This document shows, in pieces, positions 7,770 through 39,270 of a DNA stretch of 64,000 bases (its first letter is position 1; every line of letters begins with the position of its first letter). Made by a program: the position numbers and the translations under genes. Source of the DNA: Hoplostethus atlanticus (lineage: Eukaryota > Chordata > Actinopteri > Trachichthyiformes > Trachichthyidae); the NCBI GenBank assembly GCA_034670405.1, contig JAXDDX010000167.1, forward strand, positions 672,001 to 736,000, read 5' to 3'. The notes under the pieces are model-generated. The model did not search any database and had not been told where the DNA came from. It saw nothing but the letters and a program-made list of their open reading frames with translations.

Positions 7770-10700
7770 TTAAGGTGCCACTGTGTTGAAGAGTGAGTTC
7801 ATTGGCATCTTAACCATCTCACCAGTGGACACAGTGCCTAGAGGACAGAGACAGGAAGAAGAGCAGACGCACATAAGACACACAAAAAAGATGAATGAGG
7901 TTTTTTGCTGTGTGACAAAAATATATTTGTGAATTGCAAAACATTCTTGCACTTACAGAATTAGCAGGATTGGATAAAATGTTTTGTAATCTAAGATGCT
8001 TGGCCATTATTATGACTCACCAGCAGAGCTACATTATGGGGACTACACTGCCGTGGATCCATCTCCTGACGACATCACGACACCTTCTAAGAACACCATA
8101 GCATCACCTGATGATGTAATGGCACCTCCTGATGACGTCAGGGCACCACCAGAGCCAGCAGATGAGGAGCTGATCTCAGAGCCACTACACTGCATTGATG
8201 TAGAAGCTCCCCCTGCCTCTTCAGCTGACATCATCATGCCTCCACTTGACATGGCGTCACCAGAGCTAGCAGGTGGGTAGATGAACTCAGCACTACTAGG
8301 CTGCACTGACATGGATCCATCTCCTGATGACTTCACGACACCTTCTAAGGACACCATAGCATCACCTGATGATATAATGGCACCACCAGAGCTAGCAGAT
8401 GAGGAGATGAACTCAGAGCCACTAGGCTGCACTGACATGGATCCATCTCCTGAAGACATCATGGGCCCACCAGACACCGTAGCCCCTCCTGATGTCATCA
8501 AAAAGCCACTTGAAGGCATCATAGCTCCCCCAGAACTGGTGGAAGAGGAGCTGATATCTGTGGTGCTTGATGTACCATCCTCCATCAGGCCCTCAGCAGC
8601 ACCTGTTGCACCTCCTGATGTCATCACGGCTTCCCCAGAGCTGCTAATCTCTGTACAACTGGATTTCATCATCATGCCTCCTTCCATCATGGCTGCTTCT
8701 GCTGGAGAAAAATCAGGCCATCATTATCCACTTATAACCTTATACATTTACTCAGGCCGTCAACCAAAAATATTTAACGAAGATCAATGTAATCCAGAGT
8801 TAACGGAGAACAACTCTACACTGCACTTGCCTGAAAGGATAATTTCTGATTTTAGTCTGATATTGAATTGGTACTTTGGTGTAAGAATAGTCTACAAACC
8901 AAGTGAAGTTCTCTTGTAACACAAATAAGAGAAAAATTCAGCCACCACTAAAGTCATAGGGGTAACCATGACATGTTTAATAATTCACCTTGAATCGATG
9001 CTTCCGGATGATTTGGAAAACACTACAGTTACCCCCATGACTCCCAATTATTTAGCATTTATTGTTACTAAGTTTTTGCCAATGTTTTTCAGTTTGGCCT
9101 CGTTCTTCGACTACTCTCAGGTCAATGAACCGTCTGAATATCACACAGAATCCTTCCATTTGGAAACCAACACAACAACACAATCAGAAAGAAAAACACA
9201 CAGTAAAGATGAGCCACAAATGGAGGTCATTGAGGACCCTGAAATATACTAAAATACTGCCCCGCTAGTCCCAGAGTTTTTGTTTGTGGTTAATGTTTTA
9301 TCTTTTTATTATTTTACTTGACATTACTTCAGGGTTTGTATGCATCAGTAACAATTTGAACCAATCGGTCACACCTGTAGCACAATCCGATGCCTCCAAT
9401 GTTGCACCAGCAGATCCTCCTGAGCCAGCTGTACTGCCAGCATTGCTGCCTGAGGGTTCTGTTGCAGTGGACGCGATAACCATAGACCCTCCCTCTGATT
9501 TTATCATGGCAGAGCCTCCGCCAGACATCGTACCTCCAGATGACACCATTACGGCTTCAGCACCTCCACCCGATGGCATTATGGCTGCTCCGTCAGAGGA
9601 GGAGGAAGAGGAGCACTTTGTGATGTTGGTTACCATTCCTCCTTCGATCGTCGTGGTGGTGGTGACTGTCTTGCTGTTCATGACAACCATGGATCCATCA
9701 CTGGTCATCACTGAGTCTTCTGATGATACTATTGCTGCATCAGCTGCCCCAGCTGCACCAACGGCACCAGCAGCATCACCAGAGCTGCTGGTGCTGGTCA
9801 CCGTCTTGCTGGTTTCGAAGACGGTGGATCTTCCCCCTGGTGATGTTATGGCACTTCCTGATGACAACATTGCAGCTCCACCACCGGAGCTGGTGGTTGA
9901 GGATGAGGAGGTGATAGAGCTGGACATGGTCATCATGGGCCCCTCAGCACGAGCTGTGGACAATATTGCAGCTCCTCTGGCACCACTTGCTGACATCATG
10001 GCTGCCCCACTAGAGCTAGTGAATGAGGTGGAGGCTTTTCTAGATGTCATCATCAACGAGGCTCCTCTTGTTCCCCCTGCAGCCATCATGCCTGCTCCAA
10101 CAATGCTGGCCCCCTCTAGCAGCTTCCTGTAGGTGCTGATCTCCATCTCAAGACGGCTCTTGATGTCCAGCAACCTCTGGTACTCCTGGCTCTGTTGAGT
10201 GACACCCTGGCAGACTGAGGACAAATCTCCCTCCAGACCAGCCACCAGGCCTCTCATGCCCATAAGGCGTTGCTGGTACTGGGCCTCCACTTCTGCAAGC
10301 CTGGCCTTCAGGTTCACATTCTGGAGAAGAACAACAAGAGAGAGGATACATAGAATGAGAAAGTAAAAAACTTTATTGTGTGTGTGTGCATGTGTGTGTT
10401 TCATTTTGTGGTACACTTCACCCCCATGAAGAGAACTTCCATCTCCATCTGTAGTCCGAGGGAACGTTTGCGTCCATCTCTGGCTTCTTGTGTCTCACTG
10501 ACCATTGTCTCAGTTAGCTGGGTTGACGCTACCTGTTTCACCTCCAGCTGAGACATACAGACACATATGGACACAAGCACAAATTCATTGTCATAGTTAA
10601 ATCTGGCATATGGAATATATTTGTGTGTGAGTACACGTGATTACAACTGACCTGTTTCATGTACAAGCCCTCGGCCTGGCGTCTGTTGTGGTCCACAGCA

Positions 10701-24275: not shown

Positions 24276-24444
24276 AGGAAGAGAGGACACTTACTGGGAC
24301 TAGTTTCCAGTACCAGCGGTTGGAGGGACACTGCCAGGCAGAAGCAAGGCGTGAGAGAGGACAAAACAAAGACAAAAAAGCAGAGCAAGGTAGATGTTAG
24401 CAGCTTTAGCAATACAGCTGTATAGTCTGTAGCAAAAATGTTGC

Positions 24445-24486
<42 letters not shown>

Positions 24487-25931
24487 GTGCGTGTGTGTGT
24501 GCGATTGCATTTTCACCGTTTCCTGAGCAGGCTGCAGGTCTGTACATGTCTGAGATTTGGGAGGCTCTTCTTCTTCTGTGCTTTCTCTCAACGTCTGGTT
24601 CAGCTGTATGCACACACACAACCAATTCATCAAATGTCAACCTCGGGTCACTATCCGAGCACCCCGTTGTTGTGTTGTGGTGGTGGTGTGGTCTCACCCT
24701 GTTGACCCAGAAGAGCAGAGCGTTCTCCCACGGAGCCCCGCCCCCCATCTGCTCCGCCTCCACTGCCATCTTCACCCTGCCCACTGTCTCTTTGGCAGCC
24801 AGTGACATCAAGGCGTCAATCAGGGCCAGGTGGGCCTTCTGCATCCATCACAAGAGGGGAAACAACTGTCAGCCAACAGAGAATGGAGGAGGGTAGCAAT
24901 GACATCTTTACAAAAAAGGAGAGTGGATAGTTGACCAACTTTTAGAGGGTTTTGCTTACTTAGAGAGTTGGAAAATAGAGGAAAGTTCCAGTGGGATTCA
25001 ACCCTAGACCAGCAGGGGGTATTCATGTGGCTCAAGCAGCAGACTTACCCACCTCACTATCGCTCAGCATATAAGGACAGATTTGATTTGGTATAAACCA
25101 GACAAAGGGAATCGCAAAAATAAAAATTGAGGAATGCATAAGCCCTTTTACACTCTTCCTCACACACACACACACACACACACACACCGTCTTGATGGGG
25201 ATGCGGCTGAGGTCCTCCTCAGTGACGTCTACATTCTGGTCCTTGGGGGTGAAACCCTTCCTGGTGAGGAGCTGCAGCAGGGCTGAGTTATTGGCTGGGG
25301 ACCCCTGCGATGCTGGCTGGGAGACCCCATGGGCCTGGGCTAGCAGGGCCTGGGCCCGGCAGTAGAGCTCCGAGGACAGAAGCAGCTTGGACACGCCTGG
25401 TTTGAGATGCTCTTGTTCATACTGGTCCTTGTAAAGTGGCTCGCGCAACTCCACCGGAACATTCTCTGAACAGGGGAGAGATGAGGGACACAGTGAGCTT
25501 TTCAACATAAAGAAAGGAGAGATACGCTGAGCTTATGAAGAGAGAAAGAACCACAGCATTCATTTGTAATATTTTAGTGGATGGCACAAACTGACTAGAA
25601 GGGAAACACCCTCATTCACCAGCTAAAGGACTTTCTAACAGGCAAAGAGGGACAAACTGAGTCAGCTTGCCTAAATCGTTCTCCTAAGGGGAGGCAGACT
25701 GAATTAACTATAGAGACTTTCTTTATGAAATCAATGTCCCATGTGGAAGAGGTCATTTAGGTCACGCGGGCCCCTGCAGCTAAAACTAAGTAACTGCTGG
25801 ACAAATCCAAAGTTTTTCCCATGAAGGAAACTAGGTGACAATAAGTGACAACCACTGCAGGAGGAGAGTGAATAAATCCCTTCCAGAGATAATGTCATCA
25901 TCTGCATGAGCAGCTCAGCTAGGTTAACCAG

Positions 25932-27371: not shown

Positions 27372-29075
27372 CTCTTTCATACAGCCTGGCACACCTTTAA
27401 GGAAGAGGGGGTGGGGGGGGGGGGGGGGGTCGCAAAATGAATCGCAATGAATGAATCAAGATCAAGATCACATAAAGACAACAGGACTCTTCTTCACATT
27501 CAGTTTCAAAGTCACTTGGTGAAGTCAGACATGTTCGCCACAACAATAACATAAATGCCCAAGTGAGAGCAAGAAATAAGTGTGTGTGTGTGTGTGTGTG
27601 TATGAATCACTGACCCGTCTGTTTTTGCAACGGTCGTCCTGTGGTCATGTCAGGTAAATAAAATCTCAGCTAAATCAGGAGTGACATTACTGCTGTTTTC
27701 TTCTGGGCCTCCATTAAAGTTCTATGAGGTAGCCAGCGGGGCTTCCCAGCTGACAGACACAATGGAGCCCCCCCAGTGAGCATGTCTTCAGCTCATCTCC
27801 TCTCTTGTTGACTGCTAGGCTACATGTAATGTCACATGACACTCTATTCAAAAAGATCAATATGGAAAATGAACGTGGGCAATTACACAAAAATAACTAT
27901 GTAAGTTACTAATACTGCTACTATTGTTGTTGCCTAATCATTAGATGAGCCGGTAGACAGGGTCATTCTGTGACTCATGAAAACGTCCTCGCTGCAAAAA
28001 AAATGACATTTATTGGAAATTGATTTTGGACACCGGAAACCATTTTCTTTCTATGCGCTATGCTGATATACACGCATTTGTATACAAGTATACATAATTT
28101 ATTTTGGCCATTCAAAACATTTCTAATTAATGTCATTTACATGCACAAATACATGTTTTGGCCATTTTTGTATATTTTCAAAATATCACTAAACACATTC
28201 TGAAGCTCACGTGACATGTATCTTTCGCAGTATCTGTACACCCATTGTCTGTACACCTTACACAGCACACTCAGACACGCGTTATAGCACAGCGTGCGTG
28301 CGTAACACTGACATAAATATTATGCGGTCTATTGGCCCACGTACAGCCGGCCCACACAGCATCGGCTGGAAGGTAGAGATGTACTAGGCCTTCTCATCTT
28401 TACCAAAAGAGGAGTACTCTTTCTTAAACTATATTAGCCTAGTTATTCTTGTCGCGCCTTGCGTAGCCTTTATCTTTAGCCTGGCCAGTGGTATGACAGT
28501 CAACCCAAATACAGGCCCATAGCCTCAACTCTGACAAACGGCTTTGTTGCAATGCTGCGATGACAGCCTCCAGTTACTTCCCTGCCACATGGACCATTAT
28601 AAAGAAATTCTCTCTTTCTGATGCTCCTCATATTCATTTAATGGGTTTTGTTGCAATTCCGCTTTAGGAATATGCTACGCTGCGTACAGTCTTAACCCAC
28701 ACAGCCTAGCAGGGGTAAGAACTACGACGGGATATCTAGGGCAACAGGGCAGTGGTTGAGAGGGATGGATGCTGCAGGGAATAATACTGGCGGCTCCCTT
28801 CAACGCTTACAAAACGACAAATGCTCATTTAACTCAAGAGCCCAATATAGTGTGATAAATTATTGAGCGCCCCACCCAAGCAGCGCATCGCCTTTACTTA
28901 CGTGGACGGCGCTGTGTCCCTATAAAAACGGATGAAGCCTACCTGCAGACCCGTAGGATTTTGCCAGGAGCCACCGGACGCTGGCACAGATCTTGGCTCG
29001 GTTGAAATCGTACTGGTCCAGCGGTTTAATCTCCGGTACCGTGAATGTCTTCTTCATCGTACTGGCATCCTCCAT
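15324..29075 (-). CDS. camsap3: CAMSAP3, microtubule minus-end-binding protein
   Basis: Eighteen coding exons: 29075-28943, 25465-25188, 24838-24698, 24603-24517, 24330-24295, 22643-22505, 21990-21851, 21737-21644, 21539-21488, 21375-21314, 21229-21199, 21035-18539, 18354-18233, 18098-17812, 17483-17390, 16252-16146, 16004-15886 and 15707-15324. They total 4803 nt (1600 residues) with consistent phases. The N-terminal calponin-homology region includes LDQYDFNRAK, YKDQYEQEHLKP and KDTMSVADSLYNLQLIKEF. The signature FGLDSDVDIVMG is followed by coiled coils (LEEKRRSIEAQKRRIEAIFA; EEMAQRRTLLLERQQRR) and the C-terminal CKK domain (FLILLRDASCQFRGVYT to MSVDAFTIPGHLW), which recognises microtubule minus ends. 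GDFTRGEYAHRQQLRIMADL and RLTKVYSHSSLNL favour CAMSAP3 over CAMSAP1 or 2. The protein stabilises non-centrosomal microtubules, notably in epithelia. It is longer than the roughly 1250-residue human protein, mostly in the linker encoded by the 2.5-kb exon. Confidence 0.96.
15366..15449 (-). repeat. camsap3: In-frame polyglycine tract (GGN)28 in the CAMSAP3 C-terminus
   Basis: Twenty-eight consecutive glycine codons (GGA block, then GGC block) separate the CKK domain end (GHLWQ) from a short basic tail (RRASITKKAVIPK). The human tail at this position is short and lysine-rich. Confidence 0.93.
16690..16774. repeat. (AG)n microsatellite in a camsap3 intron
   Basis: An almost pure AG tract in the intron between the exons at 17390-17483 and 16146-16252. 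Other camsap3 intron microsatellites are (AC)n at 16024-16052 and 18358-18419, and (TG)n at 18199-18229, 22041-22075, 24449-24502 and 25937-25984. An (AG)n tract lies at 24227-24271. Confidence 0.9.
24295..24330 (-). other. camsap3: 36-nt camsap3 microexon encoding the WYWKLVP motif
   Basis: This 12-codon exon (CPSNRWYWKLVP) has clean AG and GT borders and phase 0 on both sides, so it can be skipped without a frame change. The motif is found in CAMSAP1 and CAMSAP2, but from memory it is absent from the main human CAMSAP3 form. Confidence 0.75.
27407..27429 (+). repeat. Long G run (about 17 consecutive G) in camsap3 intron 1
   Basis: GGGGGT is followed by about 17 G on the + strand, next to a (CA)n tract at 27341-27367. 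It could form a G-quadruplex and is a likely site of sequencing error. The rest of intron 1 (25466-28942) shows no other coding exon. Confidence 0.7.
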
Positions 29076-29900
29076 CGCCGCGCTGTTCTGCACGAAGGAC
29101 ACGGAGGCACCACAGCACCGGGGATATGTGATGATGAAGAAGGGAGGGAGGAGGGAGGGAGGAGAATAAGGAGGAGAGGACCCTGTAGTGATAGATATGC
29201 TGAACAAAAATGCGTGACAACTAAAAGTTTAAAACAAAGAGTGAAATTGGAAACATCAATATGAACGGAATCCAAATCAATAACATGCAATAATAAAACA
29301 CACTTTTACCATCAATTGTTCACACGTCTTCTACACTTCCCGCCCCCTAAACGTCACGTGTCGGCCAGCGGGGTGTCATACAAAATTCCCTCTTATTCTT
29401 ATTTACCACTTAGTTGGGTCGATCGTGTGCGCACTGCTCCTAATTCCGATATTCCCGACAGCACCTGAAGGTAGCAATATCGCTCCGCTCTTTCACTAAT
29501 TAACAACCTTTGTTTGTATTGTTTAGTGCAGTTAATGGTCATTGTGCTGTTAATTAAAGACGCGTGCTCGAGGTGCTCTTGAGCAAGGCACGTCACCCCC
29601 AACTGCTCAGGTGCCTACATCATTTGAGGGTTTATGGTGCTTTAATTGACAGAGACAGGAGCAGTGTCCTTCAGCCACCAGGAATGTTGCACAACTAGTT
29701 TTTCCTCATTGTTTTCTTTCCTGGGTGTGTTAGGAATCATGTGAGTGAGGAATAAATGTTACTTCTGCAGTCTCACCGTACAGTCGCTACCCAGATCTGA
29801 CCCAGCATCAGATACACGTCATGATGGTGAAGGGAAGAACAACAGGATTATTAAGCAGATTCCATTTTAATCACACACGGACGACCTGAAGGAACACCAG
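29076..29900. promoter_or_regulatory. Divergent promoter region between camsap3 and the orphan + gene
   Basis: camsap3 starts leftward at 29075, and the first exon of the + gene ends at 29924. Between them, 29351-29360 reads ACGTCACGTG, an overlapping CRE-half/E-box. The stretch 29566-29625 resembles a widespread fish repeat (GAGCAAGGCACGTCACCCCC). The exact transcription starts are not visible. Confidence 0.4.
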
Positions 29901-30530
29901 ACTGCATTCGGGTGAAGAAATAAGGTGAGTCTGTAATGAGCGCATAGGCTACTGTGCTACGGTGTGTGTATGTTGGAGGGCTCACTCAAATCAAGTCTAC
30001 TTATATAGCCCTTCATCACAAACGAGGCTAACGAGGACAAGCTGATAGACAACCGGATTTGTGACATAATCAGTTATCATAAATCAAATTTTGACACTTG
30101 TGATGTTTATAGTGTATGGTCATAACAAAAGCACATTGACTGACTGAAAGGATTTGCCAGAGAGGTGAGCCTGAGGTACCCTAACCCGGCCGACACCACC
30201 AGCCAACCAAGAGTCCATGAAGACTTCACAAAAATGTCATCATATCTGAATACTATAGTTATAATATTGGATTTGATAAGAAATCTATATGGACTATATG
30301 AATAGCAAGTATGTTTTATCCCAATGCTAACTTTGTCATGATTGCGGTTTTGTGGGGGGAAATAAAAGACCCTTCCCAGCAGATGTGACATGTAATGTAT
30401 AAATTGTGTGTTTGTTTGTGTATATACATAGAGTAGGCACATTGTGACAGACTAAGACTAAACTGGCCTCCAGAAGAGTGTTTGGGTTTACATTGATACC
30501 TTTTTTCCCCCCCCTGCAGGTCAACTTGCC

Positions 30531-30935
30531 ATGGGAGGGTCCTCCTCCAAGAAGAGCTTCTTTGGGAGGAAGAAGAAAGACAAGTCGGCTCTGCGCAGCG
30601 CCTGGAGTAGACTGAGGGGGGCGCTGCCCGTTAAGAAACACAAGAAGAAGAACATCCTGTCACTGGACAAATTCAACCTGGATAATCTGAAGAGGGAGGA
30701 GCGTTCCCAGAAGGGGTTCTCATTGTCAAGGGACAGGAAGGAGTCAATATCAATCAAAGGAGTCTCTCTTGGCAGGACAAGGAAGGAGCCAGTGTCTGTT
30801 AAGACTCTTTCACTAGGAAAGAAGGGGCAGAAAGGAGGCGGGATAGGAAGAGTAGGGGAGCAGATAAAGAGATTCTCTTTAGGAAACACAAGAAAGAGCT
30901 CACCTCCCCGCCCGAGGTTCTCTCTTCCTCTCTGA
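30531..30935 (+). CDS. Unrecognised basic, probably N-myristoylated 134-aa protein
   Basis: I do not recognise this protein. The whole frame lies in one exon whose acceptor (poly-T/C then CAG) is at 30519. A 5' noncoding exon with a strong donor (AAG|GTGAGT) ends at 29924. The ATG at 30531 has an ideal context (GCCATGG). The protein starts MGGSSSKKSFFGRKKKDK, matching the N-myristoylation rule (Gly2, Ser6, basic 7-8), and has a polybasic patch and KKHKKK near residue 35. From about residue 60 a roughly 14-residue motif repeats: FSLSRDRKESISIK, VSLGRTRKEPVSVK, then LSLGKK, FSLGNTRK and FSLPL. Serines after basic residues look like PKA/PKC sites. It has no cysteine, no transmembrane segment and no enzyme motif. 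A membrane-bound, phosphorylation-switched adaptor like MARCKS is my inference. A poly(A) signal lies at 31597. Confidence 0.65.
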   Translation: MGGSSSKKSFFGRKKKDKSALRSAWSRLRGALPVKKHKKKNILSLDKFNLDNLKREERSQKGFSLSRDRKESISIKGVSLGRTRKEPVSVKTLSLGKKGQKGGGIGRVGEQIKRFSLGNTRKSSPPRPRFSLPL

Positions 30936-31596
30936 ACTTGAGCACACTTAAAAAAAACACACACACTTACAAAGTGTTCCTGAGTTTTAGTGGAAACGTC
31001 AGTGCTTGTGAAATACACACTCAGAGTGTGTCACACATACTTTCCCCTCTACGGTCCTGTAGCCAGTGTCCTCAAAACACACGTGTGAGCAAATGGACAA
31101 TTTCTAATGTGTACCCTGAATTTGGCAGTTAGACTATCATGATACACAAAGTATGTCTTACAGTTGAACCACAGAGAGGCCACAAGAAAGTCAGACAGAC
31201 ACTCAAGTATAACGTCTTTAATGACGTGTCAGCTTCTCGTTACACGGCGATGCAGATGGCTGATGGATTACGGCTGAAACCCATCTTGTGAAACACTCAA
31301 AAAAGAAAGTACCAAAAAAAATCCATACAGTCATAAATTTTCCTTCATATAAACATCTTGATATCACTTTTACTCAACACATGCTGAATTATGAACATCA
31401 TATCATAACAAGAGAACATCAAAATGAAAGAGCTTTTCCCTTTTGCTTCAAATGACTCATCTCGTTTTTGGACATCATGTAAATGTAAAATTACATTATT
31501 GATTTGACGGTTCCTAGGTCTGTGTGATGTATTACAGGAGGGGTCTCAAACCTACATGTCTGAGAAAGTGCACTAAATACATTGTCTACGGTTATA

Positions 31597-31602
31597 AATA
31601 AA
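31597..31602 (+). terminator. Candidate poly(A) signal of the orphan + gene
   Basis: AATAAA on the + strand, about 660 nt past the stop codon at 30933-30935. No other gene was recognised between 30936 and 32104. Confidence 0.45.
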
Positions 31603-32104
31603 GCTCATTTAAAAATATATAGAAATCTTGTGTAATTCAAACAATTCACATCATGTAAAATCCCATGACAGTAGCATACACGCCTCTAGACAATAAAACC
31701 ACAGTGCTTATGAGTTTTCTTACCTACAGCAGCGCTTCTTAGCTGGCATTGCATTGGCACCCAAACCGTTAAGTCACAAGCTAATGTAATGTAATGCAAT
31801 TTGATATTTGAGAGGAAGAAGAAATGGGAATGGAGACCAAGAGTTCAGAGCTTCAGTGGCCTTGCATAGCGGGTTTAGCAAATTAACAATAGCAACTTTA
31901 GCTTTTGCTATCATATCACATACATTCATTTTGGAGGATCATAAGGGTACAAAATCCCTGGATGAAAATCAGTCTATTTGTTAGCACCTACTGCCTATGT
32001 CAAACTACAATGACCGTTTTTCTGACAACGTAAGAATGACAATCCAAGTGTGTGTCTGCAGGTCTTGAGTGTGTGTTGAAAGTTTATCTTTGTTTGGGTT
32101 CATT

Positions 32105-32194
32105 TCAGCTTTCCGAAGAGGCCTGGTTGTCTTCTGAGACTTCCAGGATGAGAGGCATGCCGTTGGTCTTGTCTTCCAGCTGAGCACTACGACT
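32105..32194 (-). CDS. Candidate terminal coding exon of unknown gene
   Basis: On the minus strand a pyrimidine-rich stretch ending CTACAAG is followed by 29 codons and a TGA. The peptide is acidic and polar: SRSAQLEDKTNGMPLILEV, then SEDNQASSES. I do not recognise it. Its phase 0 would allow splicing from a GAG|GTACTG donor at 34252-34254 inside the last lpar2 exon, giving an alternative receptor C-terminus, but this is speculative. The (AC)n tract at 33100-33140 and the rest of 32195-34126 show no coding signal. Confidence 0.3.
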   Translation of the reverse strand, partial: SRSAQLEDKTNGMPLILEVSEDNQASSES

Positions 32195-33094
32195 CTTGTA
32201 GGGCAGAGAGGGGTGGAGAGACTGATAAAGTATAAGCCAGGGGGAGAAATGAGGTAAGGAATGGGGAGAGGGGGGGGGGTGGGGAGAGATAGAGAGGAAA
32301 GGGATTAGGTGCAGTAAAAGGGAGTGAAAAAGAAAACAGAAAATGGGTTAGTCATGTCCAAACTAGCAAAAAGAAGGAAACAGGTTGAGAGAAAAAGACA
32401 CAAAAAGACATATTTCTTCCGGAGAGAAAATCACTCAGTTTCACGCCGACATTTGCGTTTGGCACAGACAGACAATCACTGCACAGAGCAAACATCGCAG
32501 GCAGGCAGACAGACGCAAACCAGACAAACCATATGGGTTATAAACCTGTGAATTTATTCATTTCATTGGCAACAACCTTTGTACAAAAATAAAACAAAAA
32601 AAATGTGAAAATGTTTTGAAATGTCAAAACATTATCCACTGTAGGCCTATAATATGAAAACGAATATCTACAAGTATATTTATCTGAAATCTGAAGACAA
32701 AGAATATAGTTTGAATATGGTATATGCCTTTAAATAGCTTCCTGTATTGACGTTCCCTTTAAGAGTACTGGTAGTTGTGTATACTGATAGTGACAGTATC
32801 CACAAATGTATAACTTCCCTTTTATTCTGTGAGTGTATATAAATGGCATATATCATATCATAACACGACGGAGCAAAAGGAAATTCTTCTCACCATCCCA
32901 CTTTACCACCTCTCTGACGGGGATGTTATTGACAGGATGTGTGAAAAACAATGTTTATGGTGAATCTGTGCACACACTCAGGTATGCATGTGCACACACG
33001 CTCACGACTTCCTTGCTAGCAGTAGTAAGAGTTCCGAGTGTGTGTGTGTGTGTGGGTATTACTCTGTGAGCGTGAATGAGGCAATGCATGCTTC

Positions 33095-38163: not shown

Positions 38164-39270
38164 CACTACCGGTCTAAAGTTTAGCTAAGACCTTCTTCCA
38201 GTCTCCAGTAGTCCACCGGCGGTGCTTCATGGCCCAGGCAAGCCTCCTTTTCTTATTTTGCCATCTTAGCAATGGCTTCCTTACTGCTGCCTCGAGGCGA
38301 CTGGTTGCCCCGTCGCTCAGAGGGCCCCTGCGGCCGATCTACACGGTCACGGCTCTTCTCTGTCCTGGCCCCGCAGTGGTGGAATGAACTCCCCACTGAT
38401 GTCAGGACAGCAGAGTCGCTGCCCATCTTTCGCCGCAGGCTGAAAACCCACCTCTTCAGGAAACACTACCCTGACCCTTCCTCTTAGCCTTGCCTATTTG
38501 TCGTCAATTATGTGTCTGAGCTCTTGTTTATTGGCTCTTGTTCATTTGATACACTTATTTGTCTTAGCTCTTGTTTATTTGGTTCACTTATTTGTCTTAG
38601 CTCTTGTTTATTTGGTTCACTTATTTGTCTCATTTGTTTAAGATATAGTAGGTTGCTACTTATTGCACTCTTACCTTAACACTAGTTATGCTCTTAGTTG
38701 CTTGTTTAGGAAGGAAATGCACTTACGATTTCTGGTGACTAGTAGTTTTCTTGCCTACCTATGTTGAATGCACTTATTGTAAGTCGCTTTGGATAAAAGC
38801 GTCTGCTAAATGACTGTAATGTAATGTAAAAAATGTAATGCCACTCCACCTGTCACACCTGCAGCTCCAAGTCTTCTCTTCACAGTTGAAACTGAGACTT
38901 TGTAATAGTCACAAATAGTCACAGTTGAAAGCGGTTAACCCGTCAGACGTCTACGCAAGCTGTTGATTCTCAGAAACTTGTCTTCTGATTCCGTTGTGGC
39001 TTTGGGTCCTCTTCCTGTCAGAGTCTCCTCCAGGTACCAAGTGTCTTTTGATGGTGCAGGAAACTGTACTCACTGACTCTGAGATTGACTTTTCATTGAT
39101 TTGATTGATTAAATTGATTTTTCAGTTTTTGCTGACCTAAACCTTTTTTAACCTCTAGCAGTTTACCGCTTACCTTTGTACCATTTCAGGTTATTCACTG
39201 GACTTGAATTGCTTAAATTTCAATAAAAACTGGAAACATGAGGGTGTTCTAAAACTTTTGACCGGTAGTG
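38164..39270 (-). mobile_element. Tc1/mariner-like DNA transposon relic with inverted termini
   Basis: The left end reads CACTACCGGTCTAAAGTTT. The right end, reverse-complemented, reads CACTACCGGTCAAAAGTTTT, giving terminal inverted repeats with one mismatch in about 19. The left flank is TA; the right flank has decayed to TC. On the minus strand, 38180-38270 encodes a transposase-like piece (KRRLAWAMKHRRWTTGDWKK), and the 39000-39070 area resembles another. Stops break the frame. It is interrupted by a LINE fragment. Confidence 0.7.
38280..38838 (+). mobile_element. 3' fragment of an L2-type LINE nested in the Tc1 relic
   Basis: The + strand encodes WNELPTDVRTAESLPIFRRR then LKTHLF, the end of an L2/CR1-group reverse transcriptase. 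It finishes with the common fish tail AAGTCGCTTTGGATAAAAGC and GTCTGCTAAATGACTG, then repeated TGTAA units. The left border is approximate. Confidence 0.7.

Follow-up and report, generated by a model that had tools for sequence, protein, structure and literature searches.

The 134-codon open reading frame (ORF) at positions 30531–30935 (plus strand) of the 64,000 nt of Hoplostethus atlanticus DNA analysed here (JAXDDX010000167.1:672,001–736,000, hereafter the window) is best read, judging by its sequence, as the coding region of a two-exon gene that would encode a small membrane effector resembling MARCKS and BASP1, without descent from either being implied. That the ORF is a coding gene appears very probable, and we regard it as rather likely that the gene is real and its product both myristoylated and bound to membranes. 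The likely coding status rests on codon choice, splice signals, an upstream stop combined with a Kozak context, the start motif and a repeat, all of which are considered below.

The ORF belongs to a plus-strand gene candidate between camsap3, to which it lies head to head, and an LPA receptor gene, to which it lies tail to tail. On the minus strand, the first coding exon of camsap3 (ATG near 29075, about 0.8 kb from the candidate gene) matches the N-terminal CH of CAMSAP, and the big exon of the same gene carries a CAMSAP_CC1 match. The receptor exons, also on the minus strand (34.2 and 35.3–35.9 kb), match LPAR1 (E 1.6e-55) and an LPAR2 chimera (E 3.5e-47) among PDB sequences, matches that by themselves do not single out a subtype, the label lpar2 being that of the original prediction. 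The minus strand of the window also carries brd4 (best PDB match, E 1.4e-43) and intermediate-filament exons. Between camsap3 and the candidate gene, the stretch 29250–29499 has a CpG observed/expected ratio of 1.28 at a GC content of 0.44, and might possibly serve both genes as a two-way promoter.

Three other features of the window were recorded. At 32109–32220 (minus strand), a polypyrimidine-AG is followed by an open frame running to a stop (38 amino acids, ending QLEDKTNGMPLILEVSEDNQASSES), which might serve the LPA receptor gene as an alternative last exon: by eye, the phase of a GAG/GTACTG in the 34.2-kb receptor exon suits it. The main frame of the receptor reaches its own stop at about 34190, and nothing matching the 38-residue frame was found downstream of the closest LPA-receptor paralogue, which is located on contig C103 (69% identity). 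A UnaL2 LINE 3′ element occupies 38765–38819 (plus strand; Rfam, 65.5 bits). Finally, 8043–8720 holds internal direct repeats within a minus-strand frame rich in serine, glycine and methionine, beside an intermediate-filament exon, and this frame is perhaps the tail of the adjoining intermediate-filament gene.

The original prediction had proposed a gene model composed of two exons, with a GTGAGT donor, an acceptor, a Kozak ATG, 134 codons and an AATAAA, and both signal counts and a codon test bear it out. The putative first exon (29850–29924, plus strand) is noncoding and ends in AAG/GTGAGT, its 5′ end at 29850 being a guess of that prediction. It is followed by a putative intron of 595 nt (29925–30519), closed by a polypyrimidine tract and CAG, and by a putative terminal exon (30520–31620, 3′ end approximate) that carries the CDS, stop included (30531–30935), the 3′ UTR and a candidate polyadenylation signal (AATAAA at 31597–31602, with a second one at 31692). 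The donor GT at 29925 belongs to one of three [ACG]AGGT[AG]AGT sites on the plus strand of the 64 kb (three more on the minus strand), while the acceptor at 30519/30520, with at least 18 pyrimidines out of 20 before CAG/G, is one of two such sites on the plus strand, the minus strand having one. With simple consensus scoring, both rank among the strongest of the window. Once spliced, the frame reads AAA TAA GGT CAA CTT GCC ATG, i.e., with an in-frame TAA five codons upstream of the ATG, and the GCCATGG at the start occurs three times among the 2371 ATGs of the two strands.

Codon choice was evaluated against the coding exons of the window itself. The synonymous-codon log-likelihood of the ORF is +18.9 over 132 codons, which corresponds to z 6.1 relative to local noncoding composition and z 4.9 relative to the composition of the ORF itself (0 of 2000 draws as high in each case), and the score per codon (0.14) falls within the range of eight held-out reference segments (0.04–0.30). 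The antisense ORF scores −1.2 over 162 codons, and eight of nine control ORFs are negative. The signal comes mostly from residues 1–90: by thirds of the ORF, z is 3.5, 3.5 and 0.9 (residues 91–134, 173 of 1000 draws as high), so that codons alone give the last third no support, and by halves it is 4.8 and 2.1 (residues 68–134, 26 of 1000 draws as high). An alternative is a noncoding explanation, in which a purine-rich ORF arose by chance, possibly as part of an lncRNA from the interval that separates camsap3 from the receptor gene. ORFs of at least the same length appear in 7 of 1000 dinucleotide shuffles of 29850–31602 and in 9 of 3000 shuffles of 30462–30960, which makes length by itself weak evidence, and the window contains 68 frames that stay open for 120 codons or more between stops, true exons included. 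The faint codon signal towards the 3′ end points the same way, as does the one positive control ORF (24429–24896, plus strand, +0.085 per codon). However, a chance ORF accounts poorly for the codon z values of the whole frame, or for the coincidence of splice signals, in-frame stop, Kozak context, myristoylation-type start and 15-residue repeat in one and the same frame, and we thus hold it to be quite improbable.

The product comprises 134 residues (14.9 kDa, pI 11.75, net charge +29), of which 38 are Lys or Arg, 9 Asp or Glu, 20 Ser and 3 Ala, and it is probably disordered. It begins with MGGSSSKK (residues 1–8; 30531–30554), a predicted N-myristoylation signal that the original prediction had also pointed out: among the 2371 ATGs of the window, this is the sole fit to the strict pattern MG[^EDRKHPFYW]..S[KR][KR], a looser pattern being matched by 27. 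The polybasic patches of the same prediction were likewise recovered within residues 12–40 (30564–30650), where GRKKKDK and VKKHKKK flank SALRSAWSRLRGALP. An amphipathic helix does not stand out above chance, the best helical moment being reached by 769 of 2000 shuffles in a test biased toward the shuffles, for which proline-holding windows were kept whereas they were excluded for the protein. Given a coding gene, myristoylation of the product is probable from this start. The excess of basic residues, the high pI and the NLS-like stretches of K[KR]x[KR] form (residues 15 and 35) would also suit a real gene with a product that works mainly in the nucleus or on RNA or DNA, the MG start then being incidental or serving only a transient membrane contact; MARCKS itself reaches the nucleus via its effector domain (PMC6478813). 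Yet such a role leaves unexplained a strict myristoylation-type start in optimal Kozak context, as well as repeats that keep a hydrophobic-Ser-Leu core, for which a plain nucleic-acid-binding tail would have no need, and it is therefore deemed unlikely.

The second part of the product (residues 63–134; 30717–30932) is made of 15-residue repeats, the units of which are FSLSRDRKESISIKG, VSLGRTRKEPVSVKT, LSLGKKGQKGGGIGR (plus seven residues), FSLGNTRKSSPPRPR and FSLPL. Four or five copies of an [FVL]SL-type unit had been announced; the repeat stands, with a period of 15, and the count is corrected to six cores, five of them at residues 63, 78, 93, 115 and 130 and one at residue 43. Six [FVLI]SL motifs were never obtained in 50,000 shuffles of residues 9–134, and period 15 has the top self-score of the 40 periods compared (5–44) over residues 41–134, a score matched by none of 2000 shuffles. 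The 15-residue repeat is thus real. When four repeat units are compared, codon position 2 is the least variable: over nine codons, the differences at codon positions 1, 2 and 3 are 25, 14 and 31 (70 in total), and over fifteen codons they are 53, 36 and 57. The core Leu is kept despite codon changes (TTG/CTT/CTA/TTA) and the core Ser is encoded by TCA or TCT. Across nine sets of units, in-frame dN/dS is 0.49–0.67 and the −1 frame always has a higher value (1.4–4.1), but the +1 frame falls below the in-frame value in two of the nine sets and the reverse strand in one, so that repeat dN/dS is support rather than proof.

PKC prefers basic residues at −3 and +3 and a hydrophobic residue at +1. The cores KGFSLSR, KGVSLGR, KTLSLGK and KRFSLGN all have a Lys at −3 and a hydrophobic residue at +1, with a basic residue at +3 in the first three, i.e., three of the six cores have the form K-x-[FVL]-S-L-x-[RK] and, as predicted sites, fit a PKC-like preference. 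The C-terminal RPRFSLP matches a 14-3-3-type pattern and presumably resembles a 14-3-3 site.

Two local similarities raise the question of whether a piece of transposable element has been mistaken for a gene. Residues 72–122 align at 41% identity to an open frame of locus L007 (E 5e-6), and residues about 58–123 at 35% to an open frame of locus L006 (E 2e-5), each E-value being computed against the 3-kb locus alone; these frames (L006 on contig C43, L007 on contig C179) are, we presume, of the Tc1-type transposase. Genome-wide, however, the similarity drops to E about 7, which is chance level, and 701 nt of the gene find themselves as their single DNA match in the genome (in a search that skips very common words). 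Moreover, positions 29700–31700 match nothing else in the window, and a 15-residue period would not be typical of a transposase. A Tc1/mariner transposase fragment was consequently rejected, an origin from a transposable element being extremely improbable.

Relatives were sought in several collections. With the whole protein and three parts, Pfam-A returned no family at E ≤ 10, and the PDB sequences yielded no significant match, only hits of E 1 or worse. NCBIfam and PHROGs gave no match either, a result of little weight for prokaryote and phage libraries, and the prokaryotic and viral contig collections contained no relative, as expected of a vertebrate gene. Five peptide strings of the protein had no occurrence in the open literature (5.39 million papers). 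In the 633-Mb genome of the fish itself (1161 contigs), no second copy of the gene was found: a genome-wide protein search retrieved six places at E ≤ 10, and the best of them apart from the gene itself has E 1.6 and an internal stop. Beside the receptor paralogue on C103, the 19,951 nt downstream showed no match (E ≤ 0.01) to the ORF or to two camsap3 exons, with the low-complexity filter of BLAST on, which could mask a relative rich in lysine. Nor did that flank contain an ORF of at least 60 codons with an ATGG start and the pattern MG..[ST]. Hence, neither the genome as a whole nor the surroundings of this paralogue revealed a paralogue or ohnologue of the gene.

The statement that the protein belongs to no known family therefore holds for Pfam-A, PDB, NCBIfam and PHROGs, but the term orphan does not carry beyond the libraries searched, and here denotes absence from those libraries. 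Short, disordered, repetitive proteins escape Pfam, and for vertebrates the search covered, beside Pfam-A and the PDB sequences, the genome of this fish alone. The chances are about even that the gene belongs to a vertebrate family already known and annotated elsewhere, for instance as uncharacterised or as a diverged tetrapod orthologue, in spite of the empty Pfam search, the poor PDB hits and the peptide strings missing from the literature; other fish may well have an orthologue that is annotated yet uncharacterised. Such membership concerns novelty and is compatible with a MARCKS/BASP1-like membrane effector. According to one study, a region that includes CAMSAP3 and LPAR2 is common to placental mammals, an amphibian and teleosts (PMC3502363), so that an old gene could exist there.

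MARCKS, BASP1 and GAP43 are a class united by function, their primary structures being unrelated, and the myristoylation consensus is given as MGXXX(S/T) (PMC6478813). The product shares with this class its cationic stretches and an acylation signal, the latter predicted, and MGGSSSKK satisfies MGxxxS, as in the MARCKS family, the modification being predicted. In MARCKS, a single effector domain is switched by PKC, and the serines of that domain are of the FS/LS type. The likeness to MARCKS and MARCKSL1 thus extends from the MGxxxS start to a basic stretch with hydrophobic residues and FS/LS-type serines, an expected disorder and PKC-type sites. In contrast, MARCKS is acidic (PMC6478813), whereas our product is basic throughout, with its serines on 15-residue repeats; the acidic, alanine-rich body of the MARCKS family is absent from it (3 Ala out of 134 residues). 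With BASP1 (CAP-23/NAP-22), which starts with MGG...S-K-K, it shares this start and a lysine-rich effector adjoining the myristate. BASP1 differs in being, to our knowledge, acidic and devoid of [FVL]SL repeats. Neither the MARCKS nor the BASP1 family of Pfam was matched by the whole protein or its three parts, assuming that both models are present in our copy. The WSK segments of AKAP12 and AKAP5, which bind membranes and calmodulin, follow a W-x-x-[hydrophobic]-basic ... KK pattern that residues 24–40 (AWSRLRGALPVKKHKKK) recall. Scanned alone, the 36-residue segment at 30573–30680 hit no Pfam family, although a motif this short may fall below the filters, even with its profile assumed to be included, and the lone PDB match of the basic segment was haemoglobin (E 1, chance).

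In a MARCKS/BASP1-like effector of this kind, Met1 would be lost co-translationally and Gly2 myristoylated by NMT, after which the fatty acid and the polybasic stretches (residues 12–40) would tether the protein to the acidic inner plasma membrane. Kinases of the PKC or PKA type may then phosphorylate the repeats at their K-x-[FVL]-S-L-x-[RK] serines, a step that would weaken the hold of the tail on acidic lipids or, alternatively, expose or block the binding of calmodulin or 14-3-3. This switch, put forward in the original prediction and a reasonable reading of the design, is the least certain step: given a coding gene and myristoylation, phosphorylation is as apt to regulate membrane binding as not. 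Six phosphates would bring about −12 to a net charge of +29, leaving approximately +17, hence complete release is doubtful and less certain than in MARCKS. It would be likelier that the tail loosens by degrees, or that the protein changes partners, than that a full release of the MARCKS type takes place.

A more ambitious and, to us, doubtful proposal is that of a lineage-restricted single-copy vertebrate gene, arisen between camsap3 and lpar2, with an independently evolved myristoyl-electrostatic device of several sites. This device, which would combine a myristate with two polybasic patches and with five or six PKC-type cores carried by the 15-residue repeats, would be graded like a rheostat rather than all-or-none, and perhaps report on PKC signals from the LPA receptor encoded next to it. 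If the gene is old, the conserved vertebrate interval would gain a myristoylated protein about which little is known. If it is real and young, it would represent the convergent origin of a membrane effector of the MARCKS/BASP1 type within one short exon, with switch sites that can be counted and removed singly.
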